Of a stretch of DNA of 64,000 nucleotides, positions 38,661 to 57,017 are shown one piece after another. Numbering within the stretch: the first letter of the stretch is position 1; the number at the start of each line of letters is the position of its first letter. Position numbers and translations under genes: made by a program. This stretch comes from Aquisphaera giovannonii (GTDB lineage Bacteria; Planctomycetota; Planctomycetia; Isosphaerales; Isosphaeraceae): contig NZ_CP042997.1 of assembly GCF_008087625.1 (NCBI RefSeq), positions 5,890,001 to 5,954,000 on the forward strand. Direction: 5' to 3'. The notes below the pieces were generated by a model. That model was given only the letters and a program-made list of their open reading frames with translations. It made no database searches and had not been told where the DNA came from.

Positions 38661-39890
38661 TCAACTCCCTGCGGCTCCCGGAGACGGAAGGGATGGCGCT
38701 CGAGGAGGTTGAGGCGAAGCTTGAGGCGGGGGGGCGAGGGGCCGGGGCATGGCCGGGTCGACGGGGCGGTTCCGAGGGCGGGTGCCGTCCCGCGACCTCG
38801 ACTCGCGCTCGCGATTCAACTCCCTGAGGATCGCGGCGCCCAGGTCGGGCTCCGGGGCCTCGGGCGCCTCATGAGAGGTCAGGAAGCCGGAGGAGTCCGG
38901 GGACGCGGGGCGGTTCGGCGACGGGGCTGGCGGTGGCGGCTGAGACGGGGCGGGCGGGCTCGGCCGGCGGGCCGGGCTCGGGGGCGAGGCGTAGGCGGCC
39001 GAGTGCCAGGGGCCGCGGCCGGCGAGGAGGAGTCCGCCGGCGGTGCAGGCGGAGGCGGCCAGGATCACGCCGGCGACCAACTTGAGCCTGGCCAGCGTGG
39101 CCGCCCCCGAGGCGAGATCGGCCAGGGCCGCGACGGAGGCCGGGATGGCCGCGATGTCGCGTGCCCGGCCCGTCGCGAGGTGGAGCGTGGCGCGCACGAG
39201 CGAGGCCGGGACCGCGGCCGTCGCCTCGCGGGCCGCGGCGGCGGCCACCGCGCCCGCGGCGGACGCGGGCGCCAGGCCCCGCCGCGTGAGGGCCTCGCGG
39301 AGCCGGCGCTTGCCCCGGTCCAGGCGGCTCTTGACCGTGCCGACCGGGAGCTCGAGGAGGCGGGCGGCCTCGTCCTGCTTGAGGCCCCGGAGATGGCAGA
39401 GCTCGACGGGGGCCCGGTACTTGCCGGGGAGCCGTGCGAGCTCGTCCGCGATCGCGGTGCGGAGGTCCTCCCGCTCCGCGAGCCGCCGCGGATCCGAGTC
39501 GTCCGGCGCCGAGGTCGTGTCCAGGCCCTGTCGCAGGCGGCGGGCCTCGGCCCGGCATCGCGACGCCACGCGGGTCGCGATGCGACGCAGCCAGCCGCCC
39601 AGGGAGTCGGCCACCCACAGCGTGCCGGCCTGGCGAGCCAGGACCAGGAACGTGGCCTGGAAGGCGTCCTCCGCGGCGTGGTGGTCGCCCGCCGTCCGCC
39701 GGCAGATGCCCCAGACCAGCGGCCCGTGGCGGGCCACCAGCGTGGAGAAGGCCGCCTCGGCCTCGCCGGGGGGCCCGCCCTCGGCGGTGAAGCGCCGGAG
39801 GAGCTGGCCGTCGGTCATCCCGCCGGTGGGCCCGGACGCGAACAGGAGCCCCATCTGCCGGGGCGCGGAACCCTTGCTTCCGTGAGCCAA
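38661..39890 (-). CDS. ECF sigma factor with membrane-spanning C-terminal extension
   Basis: A 409-residue protein. Residues 25-200 are an ECF sigma factor: region 2 ([26 protein letters not shown]) and region 4 (LPGKYRAPVELCHL, AARLLELPVGTVKSRLDRGK). The extension has Ala-rich helices and a hydrophobic segment (LKLVAGVILAASACTAGGLLLAG, about 260-285) followed by a long proline-rich tail. This is the planctomycete sigma type in which the chain may be tethered to the membrane. TTG 39890 is the best start: GAGGA lies eight bases before it and MAHGSKGS matches relatives' N-termini; ATG 39965 is the alternative. Confidence 0.88.
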   Translation of the reverse strand: MAHGSKGSAPRQMGLLFASGPTGGMTDGQLLRRFTAEGGPPGEAEAAFSTLVARHGPLVWGICRRTAGDHHAAEDAFQATFLVLARQAGTLWVADSLGGWLRRIATRVASRCRAEARRLRQGLDTTSAPDDSDPRRLAEREDLRTAIADELARLPGKYRAPVELCHLRGLKQDEAARLLELPVGTVKSRLDRGKRRLREALTRRGLAPASAAGAVAAAAAREATAAVPASLVRATLHLATGRARDIAAIPASVAALADLASGAATLARLKLVAGVILAASACTAGGLLLAGRGPWHSAAYASPPSPARRPSPPAPSQPPPPAPSPNRPASPDSSGFLTSHEAPEAPEPDLGAAILRELNRERESRSRDGTRPRNRPVDPAMPRPLAPPPQASPQPPRAPSLPSPGAAGS

Positions 39891-39992
39891 GGCATCGTCC
39901 TCGCGATCGTGGTTCGGTCGACTCCTCCTTACTGTTATGCCGTCGACCGGGGAAAAGGTCCGCATTATTCCGCCGCCGGCCCGGTTTTCCCC

Positions 39993-42005
39993 TCAACGAG
40001 GGCCCCGGTCGGGGGCATTCGACCGGAAAAGCAGATACCGCCCGTCGGGCGAGAGGGCGAGGTCGGCGATCATCGGGGCCGCCGACACGGCGTCGATCCG
40101 CCGGGGCGGCTCGGGCCCGGCGGGTTGCACCTCGTAGAGGCCCATCCGCCCCGCCTCGTCCGCCGCGAACAGGCAACGGCCGCTCCGCTTGTCATACACC
40201 GCGTCGGACGGCACGAGGCCGCCCCGGGCGGGGGCCTGGAAGAGGATGCGCTTCACCGAGGCACGCCAGGGCTTCGCCACGTCGAGCAGGGCGATCTCGC
40301 GACTCGTCCCGACCTCCAGGATCGCGAGGAGGAGATCCTCGCCGGCCCATTCCGGCGCGGCGATCAGCTTCCCGCCGTCCAGACGCACCCTCTGCGACAC
40401 GCCGGCCTGGACGTCATGAAGGAAGGCGTGGATCGGGGAGCCGAAGCCCGTGATCAGGAGCTTGCTCCCGTCGGGAGACCAGAGGGGCGGCCCGTACACG
40501 CCGAGCGGGTGCGCCCCGGAGCCGTCGGCCCGCATGACCCACGCGCCGGGCTCCTCGCTCGAATCGCCCCCGGAGTTGGCGAGGTAGGCGATCTGTTCGC
40601 CGTCGGGCGAGAGGCTCGGGCAGTTGCCCGGCTTGTGCTCGATGAGCGCGGGGCGGCCGTCGCGAAGCTCCACGGACTTGATGTGCGCCATCTGGTAGAG
40701 GCCGAGCGGGCTGGCGTCGAGGAAGACGCGACGGCCATCCGCCGTCCAGGAGAGCGACCCGCAGAACGAGAGGCGCCGGGCCGGCTCGTCGAGGACCGTC
40801 CACAGCCGCTTGCTGGCGACGTCCATCAGGTACACGCGATCCCGGTCCGACCCCTGGGGGCGGAGGACCGGGTCGCGGCCGAGCGCCGCGACGAGGCGGG
40901 CGGCCTCCGCGGCCGGCGAGCGATCGTCCCGGCCCGGCATCGCGACGCGGGGCGGCCGACCCATCGGCCGATCGGCGTTGTCCGTGTGGAAGAGGAGATA
41001 GCGGCCGCCTGGCGACAGCGCGAGGCCGCCGAGATTGGGATCGTATCCGCCGCGTTCCAGGCGTCGCGGCGGCGCGGGGTCGCCGCGCCTCATCGCGTAC
41101 GTCGCCATCCCCCCCGGCCCCGCGCCGACGAAGACGCAGCGACCGGTCTCGGGCGAGTACGCGACCTCGCCCGGCTCCACGTCCGGGCCGTCCGACCTGC
41201 GCCAGAGGACCTCCCTGACCGTCGCACGATCGGGGTCCGCGACATCGACCACGGCGATGGCCTCGGGCGACTCGCCGCCGACGGCCGCGACGATCGTGTC
41301 CGGCGAGGCCCACGCGGGCACCGAGAAGATCCGCCGCCCTTCGAGCGTGATGGGCCGATATCCCCGGCCCGCGGCGTCCATCAGCGAGGGGGGCGACGAG
41401 GCGCCGGGGTGGACGACCAGGATCCGCCGGCCGTCCGGGGACCAGATGGGCTTCCCCTGGCCGCCCGCCCATCGTCGTCCGCCGCCGTCGGCCCGCATCG
41501 TCCACACCCCCGGCGCGTCCTTCGAGTCCGCCCTGCGGACGAGGGACAGGGCGATCGTCGCCCCGTCGGGGCCGAAGCTCGGGAATCGGCCCGAGCCCAG
41601 GTCGACGACCCGGGGCCTGTCGCCGACCAGCTCCAGCGCCTCGATCCGGGAGAGCTGCCAGAGGTCGAGTGGGGCCGCGTGGAAGAGGATCTTCCGCCCG
41701 TCCGGCGACCAGCAAGGCGAGCCGCAACGGGTCCGCCCCTTCTCCGGCTCCTCGACCACCGGAGCCGCCTCGCCGGTCTCGACGTCGGCCACGAACAGAC
41801 GGAAGCAATCGGTCCCCTCCGGCCGCACGAGGGGGGCCGCCTTCAGCCCCTCCGCCAGCCGATCGACGGCCTCCCGGACATCCGCCCCCGGGCCGTCCGG
41901 GGCCGGCGGCCGGGCCTGCTGGGCGCTCGCCGGGCGTGCCCCGATCATCCCCAGGAACAGGACCGCCAGGCCCGCGGCATGCCGGTAATTGCTGGATATT
42001 CTCAT
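39993..42005 (-). CDS. secreted protein with two TolB/WD40-like propellers
   Basis: A 670-residue protein with signal peptide (to about 28) and a duplicated architecture: residues 45-340 and 360-670 are related halves, each with repeated WSPDGRKILF/LSPDGRYLLF strands (PD40/TolB-like propeller blades) and the parallel phrases QGSDRDRVYLMDVASK versus EGTDCFRLFVADVETG. It is the second gene of an operon: its ATG is four bases after the stop of the 43212-42010 gene. It likely binds periplasmic partners or peptidoglycan, as TolB does, but no ligand is known. Confidence 0.82.
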   Translation of the reverse strand: MRISSNYRHAAGLAVLFLGMIGARPASAQQARPPAPDGPGADVREAVDRLAEGLKAAPLVRPEGTDCFRLFVADVETGEAAPVVEEPEKGRTRCGSPCWSPDGRKILFHAAPLDLWQLSRIEALELVGDRPRVVDLGSGRFPSFGPDGATIALSLVRRADSKDAPGVWTMRADGGGRRWAGGQGKPIWSPDGRRILVVHPGASSPPSLMDAAGRGYRPITLEGRRIFSVPAWASPDTIVAAVGGESPEAIAVVDVADPDRATVREVLWRRSDGPDVEPGEVAYSPETGRCVFVGAGPGGMATYAMRRGDPAPPRRLERGGYDPNLGGLALSPGGRYLLFHTDNADRPMGRPPRVAMPGRDDRSPAAEAARLVAALGRDPVLRPQGSDRDRVYLMDVASKRLWTVLDEPARRLSFCGSLSWTADGRRVFLDASPLGLYQMAHIKSVELRDGRPALIEHKPGNCPSLSPDGEQIAYLANSGGDSSEEPGAWVMRADGSGAHPLGVYGPPLWSPDGSKLLITGFGSPIHAFLHDVQAGVSQRVRLDGGKLIAAPEWAGEDLLLAILEVGTSREIALLDVAKPWRASVKRILFQAPARGGLVPSDAVYDKRSGRCLFAADEAGRMGLYEVQPAGPEPPRRIDAVSAAPMIADLALSPDGRYLLFRSNAPDRGPR

Positions 42006-42009
42006 GCTT

Positions 42010-43212
42010 CTACCATCCTCGATGCGCCGCCGAGGGCGGCTGGTTCGACCTTTCGCCCCGGCCCGCGACGCGGAGATCCGGGACGGGATGGGGGGCGGCG
42101 CCGACCGTGCCGGAGGCGTCACGCGGCCGGCTCGCGACGGGATCGGGGAGGGCACGCTCCGAGAAGTGACGGCCGCCGTCCCGCCCCTGCAAGACGCGGA
42201 GGGACCTCACGTCGGCCGAGAAGGCCGGGGGCAGGTCCGTCGAGCATCCCGACGCGAGCCTCGCGCCGGGGCCGATGGTGCGGGGCCGCCCGGAGTCGTC
42301 GAACCGGAGGGGGGCCCAGCGAAGCTCCCATTCGCCGTCCCGGGGCGAGTCCGCGGCGAGATAGGCCAGCGAAGGGTCGCCCCCGGGGGGCCGGCCGACG
42401 ATCGGCGACCGGAGATATCGCCCCCACTCGGCGGGGGGCGTCTCGATGAGCGGCCCCGCCTCGACGACCGCGTCGCCCGCCTCGTCCAGCCGGAGCCACC
42501 AGAGCTCGTCGCCCGCGGGCCCGTCGCCCCGGCCCGGGACCGGCCGGCCGGTGACGACCGCGAGCAGGAGGCCGCCGCGGTCCTCCCCGAGCCAGGCCGA
42601 ATCGACGACCCGGGGCGCGGACTGCGCGGCGAGCGGGCAGCGCCACTCGATCCGCCTCGGGCCGCCCGCGGCGGGGGCGATCGCCCCTCCGCCATCCTCG
42701 CCCGTCGTCCCGTGGTCCCCGGCGAAGCGATGGTGATAGAGACATCCGTCGCCCGCGGCGAAGAGCACGCGTGGGCTAGTTCCCGGGAACCAGCAAGGCC
42801 GGCCCGTCGGGACCGCGCCCGTGTCCACGAAATCGAGGACCTCGCCGTCGGGGTAGGAGACCCGAGCCAGGCCGACGCCCGCGGGCTGCGCGCCCCTCGG
42901 CCCTCCGGAGAGGCGGCCGACGACCTGGAATCGACCCGACTCCTCGCGCCAGGGGGAGCAAACTCCGAGATCCAGCAGCTTGCCCGCCGGCGCCGGCAGC
43001 GAGGTCGTCCGGCCCGGATCGCCCTGCACCCAGAGCGTCGGCCGGGGCGAATCTCTCGTGGGCGGGCTGACGAGGATCGGGACCTCCCGCGTCGGCACCT
43101 CGACCAGCCTGGCCGAAGGTCGCCGAGGATGCAGGCAGACGCACGCCACCGTGATCAGGATGGATGCCCAGAGGCATGCCCGAAGCCCGAAGACACTGAG
43201 CGGGCCCCACAT
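42010..43212 (-). CDS. secreted propeller-like protein, operon leader
   Basis: A 400-residue protein with an N-terminal membrane anchor or signal peptide (VFGLRACLWASILITVACV). The rest is beta-rich with short repeats such as GRFQVVGRLSGG, PRVLFAAGDGCLYHH, and ends in a poorly ordered tail. It is weaker than its neighbour in propeller motifs. Its stop (42010) and the next start (42005) are almost adjacent, so the two are co-expressed, with the sigma factor gene ending the operon about 100 bases further. Confidence 0.7.
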   Translation of the reverse strand: MWGPLSVFGLRACLWASILITVACVCLHPRRPSARLVEVPTREVPILVSPPTRDSPRPTLWVQGDPGRTTSLPAPAGKLLDLGVCSPWREESGRFQVVGRLSGGPRGAQPAGVGLARVSYPDGEVLDFVDTGAVPTGRPCWFPGTSPRVLFAAGDGCLYHHRFAGDHGTTGEDGGGAIAPAAGGPRRIEWRCPLAAQSAPRVVDSAWLGEDRGGLLLAVVTGRPVPGRGDGPAGDELWWLRLDEAGDAVVEAGPLIETPPAEWGRYLRSPIVGRPPGGDPSLAYLAADSPRDGEWELRWAPLRFDDSGRPRTIGPGARLASGCSTDLPPAFSADVRSLRVLQGRDGGRHFSERALPDPVASRPRDASGTVGAAPHPVPDLRVAGRGERSNQPPSAAHRGW

Positions 43213-54946: not shown

Positions 54947-56776
54947 TTACTTGTTGGATTTGTCGAGCCGCATGAGGATGGCGTCGAGCTTCCGCTCGAT
55001 CTCGGAGATCCGGCGCTTCAGGTCGTCATCCGGGAGCGGCTCCCGGGAATTGCGTCCCGTGCTCCGATCGTAGTAGATCGCGGGCGGCCTCGCGGGTTCG
55101 GACGCCGCGCCGCGGGTGCCGGCGGCCCGGACGGTCGGGTCGAGGGCGGAGCCCGGGAGGGGACGCTGGGCCTTGACGTTGGGGGGGACGACGATCCGGT
55201 CCCCCGGCATGAGCTGATAGTTGGTCGAGGAGTCGGCCCCCATCGTGATCTGATCGTAGTCGATGGGCAGGACCTGGACGGCAGAGCCTTGCGGGTGGCT
55301 CCGGACCAGCTTGATGCCCGCGCGGTCGGCCCAGGACAGGACGCCCCCGGCATAGTGGATCGCGTCGAGCACGCTCTCGCTGCCCGTGACCGGGAACCGG
55401 TCCGGGTGTGCGACCTCCCCTTCGACGTAGTACACCTTGCTGTTGTAACCCGTCACGTCCACGAACACGGTTTTCGATTCCCTGGCCAGCCTTGCGAGCT
55501 GTTCCTGAGGGACGGGCTTGGCGATGTTCTGATTGTCATCGAGCTCATCGCTTTCCTTCCCGAGGCCGAGGTGGTAGTCGCTGAGATCCTGCCTCAGATG
55601 GAGTACGATCTTCGCCTTGGCCTCGGCCAGCGTCAGGCCGGCGACGTAGACCTCGCCGTACCAGCCCAGCGAAATCTTGCCGTCGGGACGTACCAGGCGT
55701 TCGCCGCTGATCGGACGGCCGGGCAGGGCCTCAAGGACCTCGACGAGGACGAGGTCGGGCGGCTCGATCACATAGTCCTCGAGGGATTTCTTGCCCGGGG
55801 AGGGACGTCTCACGACATCGATGGTCGCGGCGTGCGACGTGCGATTCAGCGCGGATTCAGCCTTGTCGGGGCTCGGCCGCTGGGCCCACGCGTGGGCGGT
55901 GGCCAGCAGGGCGGCCGCGGTCGTGATGGCGGTCGCAATCTTCGTCAGCGTGATCATGGTCAGGCTCCGGAGCACCTTGCGGGATAGCGATTCCGCGCCG
56001 GCCGGGACGATCCCGGCGACGGGGAGGCCGGCCGCGATCGACATCGCGGCGGCGACGGCGGAGCGGACCAGGTCCGGAGGAGGGGCGGGCAGGGGGGTGA
56101 TCGTGAGGGCCTCGGCGGCCGTAGAGCCCGTAAGTGCCGCAACGGCGACGGACGTCGGCGCCAGGCCCCGCCGGAGGAGCCGCGTGCGGAGCAGGTCGCG
56201 GGCGCGGGCCACGCGGCTGCGGACGGTGCCGACGGGGCATCCCAGCCGGGCGGCGGCCTGCTCGTGCGTCAGGCCCTCCCAGTAGCAGAGGAGCACGACC
56301 GACCGGTATTTCTCCGGCAGGTGGCTCACCTCCTCCTGGATGATCGGCGTGGACAGCGTGAGCTCGTCCCCCGCCGATGCATCGACCGTCGCCGGTGCGA
56401 TGCGGATCGCGGCCGCCTCGTGACGCCTCCGGCGGGCGGCCTCGACGCGGGCCCGGGCGGAGACCCTTGAGGCGATGCCGTAAAGCCAGCTCGCCAGCGA
56501 GTCCCGCTTGCGGAGCGAGCCCCGCCGCGAGGCCAGCACCAGGAACGTCGCCTGGAAGGCGTCCTCCGCGTCCGAGGCCGCCCCCAGGACGTTCCGGCAG
56601 ACCCGCCAGACCATCGGCCCGTGGCGGCGGACGATCGCCTCGAACGCGGCCTCGGCGCCGGCGTCGGCCGGGCCTCGGAAGCGCTCGACGAGCTCGCCGT
56701 CGCCCAGCCCGGTGAAGGTCCCGGCCTCGAACAGCCCCTGGACGTCGCGATCAATCGCCGCCGATGCCCTGGACAT
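54947..56776 (-). CDS. ECF sigma factor fused to Wza-like polysaccharide export protein
   Basis: A 609-residue chain. Residues 25-200 are an ECF sigma factor: region 2 ([33 protein letters not shown]) and region 4 ([37 protein letters not shown]). A hydrophobic helix ([20 protein letters not shown], 277-297) follows. Residues 332-530 are a polysaccharide-export (Poly_export) plus SLBB unit: [49 protein letters not shown], and [10 protein letters not shown] short coiled coil (585-605) closes it. The predicted topology puts the sigma domain in the cytoplasm and the export domain outside. A very strong ribosome-binding site (GAGGAGGGGAGGG) directly precedes ATG 56776. Confidence 0.9.
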
Positions 56777-57017
56777 CCCTCCCCTCCTCAGGACCTGGAT
56801 TCCTCTCTCGTCTTCCGCGGGTAGTGCCCGGGGTGCGAGGAACCTATCCATGACTTTCGCGGATTTCTTGGGATTCGTAAATGGACGCGACGGAAGGTCC
56901 CCCGAGGCATGGGTTTGTCGAGCATCCGGGGCGAAGCGATGATAGAATCGCGCGAAACCCGCCGCCCTTGTCGCGTGCATCGCAACGAAGAGAACTCCCG
57001 CAGGAGGATCCCGCACC

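Follow-up and report, generated by a model that had tools for sequence, protein, structure and literature searches.

The window, by which we mean the whole 64,000-nucleotide stretch of DNA that was analysed, carries a gene in which an ECF-type RNA polymerase sigma factor and a Wza-like OPX domain share one reading frame (Table 1). The gene runs on the minus strand from 56776 to 54947, stop codon included, and begins with ATG; the plus-strand frame 1 reading of the same interval contains stops. An earlier note, made from the letters alone, had described a single unbroken frame with a very strong ribosome-binding site. Both observations hold: the 609 codons run through with no internal stop or frameshift, and AGGAGG stands 6 nt before the main start.

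Table 1. Features of the sigma-OPX fusion gene, in window coordinates
Feature	Position	Strand	Basis
Whole fusion gene, 609 aa + stop	54947..56776	-	open frame; orthologues
Shine-Dalgarno AGGAGG of main start, 6 nt before ATG	56783..56788	-	
Sigma-70 region 2, aa 48-110	56447..56635	-	Pfam PF04542 (Sigma70_r2)
Sigma-70 region 4, aa 146-194	56195..56341	-	Pfam PF08281 (Sigma70_r4_2)
GGAG, candidate internal Shine-Dalgarno, 7 nt before internal ATG	55965..55968	-	family statistics
Candidate internal ATG, codon 274	55955..55957	-	Met conserved in family
Predicted second product, aa 274-609 (336 aa), signal-peptide-like segment + OPX domain	54947..55957	-	inferred
Hydrophobic helix, aa about 277-297	55886..55948	-	hydropathy; structure model
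Poly_export domain, OPX D1, aa 332-396	55589..55783	-	Pfam PF02563; fold match
SLBB domain (SLBB_2), OPX D2, aa 448-530	55187..55435	-	Pfam PF22461/PF10531
C-terminal helix, coiled-coil-like, aa 583-607	54956..55030	-	structure model; similar ends in alignment; coil by eye

All four Pfam domains score above their curated cut-offs. The sigma half also exceeds the cut-off of the NCBIfam sigma70-ECF superfamily, in agreement with a profile search against the PDB, and contains both region 2 and region 4, the feature of ECF (group 4) factors. Linker, hydrophobic helix and a low-complexity stretch make up the interval between the sigma and OPX domains. The helix is modest (best 19-residue mean hydropathy 1.59), and by eye its segment resembles a signal peptide. 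Between the sigma part and the membrane part, no anti-sigma or zinc-finger domain gave a Pfam match up to an E-value of 10. Windows along the sigma half have a GC content of 0.74-0.76 and those along the OPX half one of 0.65-0.69, a contrast that fits a chimeric origin.

A structure model built from 33 rows (mean pLDDT 75.7, pTM 0.41; 61 for a first model from 8 rows) is confident in the sigma and OPX domains and places helices at 259-297 and, at the C-terminus, 583-607. Its best fold matches in the PDB are Wza-type proteins, including the short OPX protein WzaB, followed by ECF sigma factors, and the profile search finds the same two groups. Pfam, hydropathy, model, profile search and fold match thus bear out what had been read from the letters: intact ECF regions 2 and 4 at a sigma-like inner end, a hydrophobic helix, and a Poly_export/SLBB pair at a Wza-like outer end.

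The further suggestion that the outer end forms part of an exopolysaccharide channel is not supported. Pfam, model and fold match find the one PES and one SLBB domain that define D1D2OPX proteins, and the outer half resembles such a short protein with no outer-membrane part: the model has no outer-membrane D4 helix, and what follows the SLBB domain is limited to a stretch of low confidence and a single short helix. D1D2OPX proteins have been modelled as octamers with no outer-membrane part (PMC9601211). The lipobox, the lipoprotein signal typical of most D1D2OPX members, is absent from the aligned fusions; in the OPX tree set its motif GCQT occurs in 16 stand-alone OPX relatives and is missing in two (L055 and L078). 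By eye, the fusions also have no counterpart of the C-terminal segment seen in the stand-alone proteins; in most of them a helix ends the chain instead. Given the absence of lipobox and D4 we reject an outer-membrane channel, and by eye no polysaccharide genes were recognised beside the gene.

Conservation, neighbours and origin of the fusion

Of the 59 genomes in a first search, 17, the window's own among them, hold the two halves in a single frame; a contig end truncates one of these 17 aligned copies, and two carry a long insertion that separates D1 from D2. In a search of the family, at least 23 of 45 genomes have a match that spans both halves, and two more (G025 and G066) hold both halves in one longer frame, which brings the total to at least 25 of 45 genomes and at least 11 of 21 genera. 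One of the three genomes in the window's genus (G001) has, among the matches listed, just one, covering the OPX half. An artefactual fusion is ruled out by the 17 aligned orthologues together with the family genomes, and a frameshift splitting the domains, which the earlier note had allowed for, is excluded by the intact frame. The sigma-helix-OPX fusion is, as far as sequence can tell, real and conserved. Variants of the architecture occur as a 1450-aa frame (L301, G066) and as a sigma-OPX protein in which D1 occurs twice and a full D1-D2 match is missing (L300, G010); a D1-only gene (L064:10711-12750) lies just downstream of the fusion in G022.

Both halves are under constraint. The dN/dS ratio is 0.09-0.30 over the sigma half (5 of 5 pairs), 0.26-0.93 over the linker with the helix, and 0.28-0.46 over the OPX half in four of five pairs, the fifth being saturated. 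The neighbourhood is uninformative as a clue to the signal sensed. Four genomes of a single genus (G018, G059, G060 and G061) have an exported OPX gene immediately downstream of the fusion, and in a fifth genome (G031) the two genes are on separate contigs. The proteins at L035, L076, L080, L084 and L085 are exported OPX proteins of this kind, paralogous to the fused domain and with a coil-like C-terminal end. A gene that we read by eye as an enolase faces the fusion in three genomes. No polysaccharide gene or cluster was recognised next to the fusions, as judged by eye only, and the ten genes scanned around the stand-alone OPX copy of the window's genome include no known export part. Beside that stand-alone lipoprotein lies a tyrosine-phosphatase-like gene (L077:7923-8705, minus strand), an arrangement that recalls capsule loci. 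A contig titled Candidatus Kuenenia stuttgartiensis (L093) carries an Isosphaeraceae-type OPX lipoprotein at zero branch length to that family and is probably misassigned.

The trees, from which identical rows were dropped, suggest that the fusion probably happened more than once, short of proof. On a sigma tree of 114 rows with 22 fusions, 7 changes are needed and at least 3 are forced, whether gains or losses; the D1-only gene of G022 was counted as unfused there since its copy is cut. On the OPX tree, a clade of fusions alone is rejected (p-AU 0.023, and 0.011 on a second tree that left out three rows with no full D1-D2 match, L064, L149 and L300), and a single origin is not rejected once tandem exported genes are allowed into the group (p-AU 0.234). 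The clearest separate event is in G025, where the fused domain pairs with a lipoprotein of the same genome (99/97 support, 74% identity); even so, joining this fusion to the main clade is still not rejected (0.161). For outlying fusions taken one at a time, placement with the main clade instead of the lipoproteins was not rejected (p 0.16-0.38), or they were already together.

The fusion belongs to a large family within its own genome. Forty-nine genes there, the window gene among them, have the same sigma domain and a following extension, and 48 of the 49 contain a best stretch with a mean hydropathy of at least 1.4. Their outer parts vary: CarboxypepD_reg occurs in 12 of 49, Big_1 in 10, AhpC-TSA and SBP_bac_10 in 3 each, besides WD40-type propellers and further families. 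Poly_export is matched in member 1 and falls outside the 25 most frequent of the 74 families found in these outer parts. Two cysteines, C60 in sigma 2 and C164 in sigma 4, are invariant in 8 of 8 fusions and kept in at least 90% of the 49 paralogues. A conserved pair of this kind, split between sigma 2 and sigma 4, is described for the planctomycete group ECF57 (PMC8999054). The family is probably this known group, and we file it as ECF57-like rather than as proven ECF57. The window holds a second member at 38661-39965 (minus strand), of 434 aa with a Pro-rich tail and no recognised outer domain; just upstream of it is a 720-aa frame (39993-42155, minus strand) that by eye resembles a PD40-type propeller. 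Another paralogue (L019, G000:C1:4850396-4851247) has an in-frame TAG inside its sigma match and is perhaps a broken copy.

A candidate internal start before the helix

Family alignments place a methionine just before the helix. It is present in 104 of 114 non-redundant family genes, which are those most similar to the window gene rather than a random set, and in 20 of 22 fusions, against 19% by chance. By a fixed rule, 37 of the 49 genes of the window's own genome have it. Two fusions escape the rule, and the window gene is among them: it is missed by a single residue, because Met274 is itself the first residue of the stretch picked.

Across the family, pairing to the anti-Shine-Dalgarno upstream of the internal Met is stronger than in synonymous recodings (-6.65 vs -5.21; 104 genes, p 1e-8), the excess peaks 8-15 nt before the last Met, and the mRNA at the Met is less folded than expected (-7.81 vs -9.75, p 2e-10). 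The window's genome alone gives the same pairing result (-7.15 vs -5.90; 23 genes, p 0.002). Three sets of control methionines were compared. Pairing is -2.57 vs -2.65 at the conserved Met of HGPMV (92 genes) and weaker than expected at 557 downstream Mets (-3.12 vs -3.38); 121 other sigma-region Mets do have a small excess too (-3.93 vs -3.47, p 0.01). At all three control sets the mRNA is more folded than expected. Codon choice points the same way: the motif glycine, a pattern that was widened between successive analyses, is GGA in 43 of 55 cases vs 897 of 6,093 in the background, and 14 of 20 pairs retain GGA, vs 21 of 122 elsewhere. In the fusions the commonest internal arrangement is GGAG at 7 nt (9 of 22). 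The window gene's sequence GGAGCCTGACCATG is identical in A. insulae, while the codon holding its first two bases goes from Arg to Trp.

Gemmataceae, a second family tested afterwards (70 taken of 112 matches), give a similar picture. A pre-helix Met is present in 46 of 68 genes and absent from the other 22; pairing is -7.00 vs -5.92 (p 0.0003), folding -7.99 vs -9.56 (p 0.0001), and the motif glycine is GGA in 12 of 18 vs 424 of 3,945. The first 29 genes alone give p values of 0.053 and 0.014. As a control we used protein kinases, of which the window's genome (G000) has 172 domain matches. Thirty loci were taken and 20 had a usable helix, under a rule that differed somewhat (the first stretch with a mean hydropathy of at least 1.9). 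None of the 20 has a pre-helix Met, and Shine-Dalgarno strength is as expected.

Other observations weigh against an internal start. In the window gene, 18% of recodings have an internal Shine-Dalgarno as strong, and the mRNA at the internal ATG is not relaxed relative to expectation. Close pairs show no raised codon identity over the motif (75 of 117 vs 4,164 of 6,963, p 0.39), in a comparison where the Mets failed to align in 12 of 38 pairs. Among 92 other family genes, 41 have a gap of 11 nt from Shine-Dalgarno to ATG, which is long for a ribosome-binding site. An internal start separating the domains had been named in the earlier note as a point against the fusion. The start itself has a good family-wide signal and a weak one in the window gene; the separation does not follow, since such a start would add a second product and leave the frame unsplit.

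A proposed tethered sigma factor and its possible second product

We favour a reading in which the gene encodes a tethered ECF57-like sigma factor, probably freed by proteolysis, together with a separately initiated exported outer domain, and we put its probability at somewhat under one half (about 0.45). The sigma factor would be held at the inner membrane by the one helix, with its N-terminus inside and its C-terminus outside, and the D1D2-type OPX domain would sit on the outer face, where it may join or monitor a polysaccharide-export ring. Changes in the ring would lead to cutting of the anchor, and the sigma part would then direct transcription of its regulon. The internal ribosome-binding site before the helix, for which the support is at the level of the family, would yield the outer domain alone as a second exported product. 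A small number of tethered subunits might then assemble together with many copies of the free domain. In favour of this reading we count the exported OPX gene directly downstream in four genomes of one genus, the constraint on both halves, the exchangeable outer domains of the 49-gene family, and the recovery of some ECF sigma factors of a related planctomycete, Tuwongella, in membrane fractions, two of them in the Triton fraction alone (PMC8567305). Against it stands the lack of any polysaccharide gene recognisable by eye next to the fusion.

The same gene could instead make only the full-length protein. This would be a single-chain sensor that releases its sigma part through intramembrane proteolysis, as in IutY (PMC8999054), with the Shine-Dalgarno-like sequence serving, for example, as a membrane-targeting pause. 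The weak signal in the window gene and the flat codon identity at the motif fit this account, as does the IutY precedent. We nevertheless consider it rather unlikely: Shine-Dalgarno strength tracks the distance to a conserved Met in relaxed mRNA, and the complete lack of the signal in 20 kinase-helix genes of the same genome makes a targeting pause the less likely cause. The sigma part might also work while still attached, switched by protein contact or conformation like WD40-bearing ECF57. Such switching has been suggested for ECF57 with its conserved cysteine pair (PMC8999054), and cysteines 60 and 164 are kept here; it would leave the helix and outer domain with no clear role in release, and we think it improbable.

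The family-level internal-start signal could also be read as two genes in one frame, the internal start giving the main product, an exported OPX protein, and the long form being a minor by-product with no signalling. This is more improbable again, given the strong Shine-Dalgarno of the main start, a sigma half more constrained than the OPX half, and the persistence of both halves in one frame across at least 11 genera. Least probable is that the protein serves as a subunit of an outer-membrane polysaccharide channel and that its sigma domain is vestigial: sequence and fold do match Wza, but there is neither lipobox nor outer-membrane helix, a helix precedes D1 instead, and the sigma regions are conserved.

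Beyond this gene, we would lay even money on many members of the planctomycete sigma family being dual-coding, each giving a tethered sigma factor as well as a free exported outer domain that is translated from a conserved internal ribosome-binding site. Such a fusion would be an unusual wiring of cell surface to gene expression. For the most part, ECF sigma factors depend on a separate anti-sigma factor to sense the envelope; here sensor and sigma factor lie in one chain, in dozens of copies per genome with exchangeable outer domains, and the nested start may control the proportion of tethered to free sensor. If dual coding is true, a class of exported proteins is missed by present annotation, and the use that planctomycetes make of dozens of such genes becomes testable gene by gene. 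For the OPX case it would imply rings of mostly free and a few sigma-bearing subunits, in which assembly of the export ring is read out as transcription. We found no description of an ECF-OPX fusion, or of an internal start in these sigma factors, in the open-access literature.

The closest known systems each share part of this design. ECF57, in its Singulisphaera acidiphila representative, has the same long C-terminal extension and sigma 2/sigma 4 cysteine pair in a planctomycete; its extension is named as WD40-like repeats, whereas the window gene carries an OPX domain, and the passages on ECF57 in that source make no mention of an internal start, for which the fusion family has a candidate (PMC8999054). 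IutY and groups ECF48, ECF52 and ECF53 likewise combine sigma factor, transmembrane part and outer domain in one chain, but carry an anti-sigma or zinc-finger part, for which the fusion gave no Pfam match, and the outer domain of SCO4117 is described as carbohydrate-binding, unlike the OPX domain here (PMC8999054). The D1D2OPX proteins EpsY, ExoA and WzaB share the single PES domain (D1), the single SLBB domain (D2) and the lack of D4. They are described as mostly lipoproteins; the fusion instead has an inner helix and an N-terminal sigma factor and no lipobox (PMC9601211). The two-polypeptide phage endolysins are unrelated proteins in which translation from an internal in-frame start yields the C-terminal part as a polypeptide of its own, able to assemble with the long form (1:5 in one case); what is predicted for the fusion has been demonstrated there by experiment (PMC9430671).
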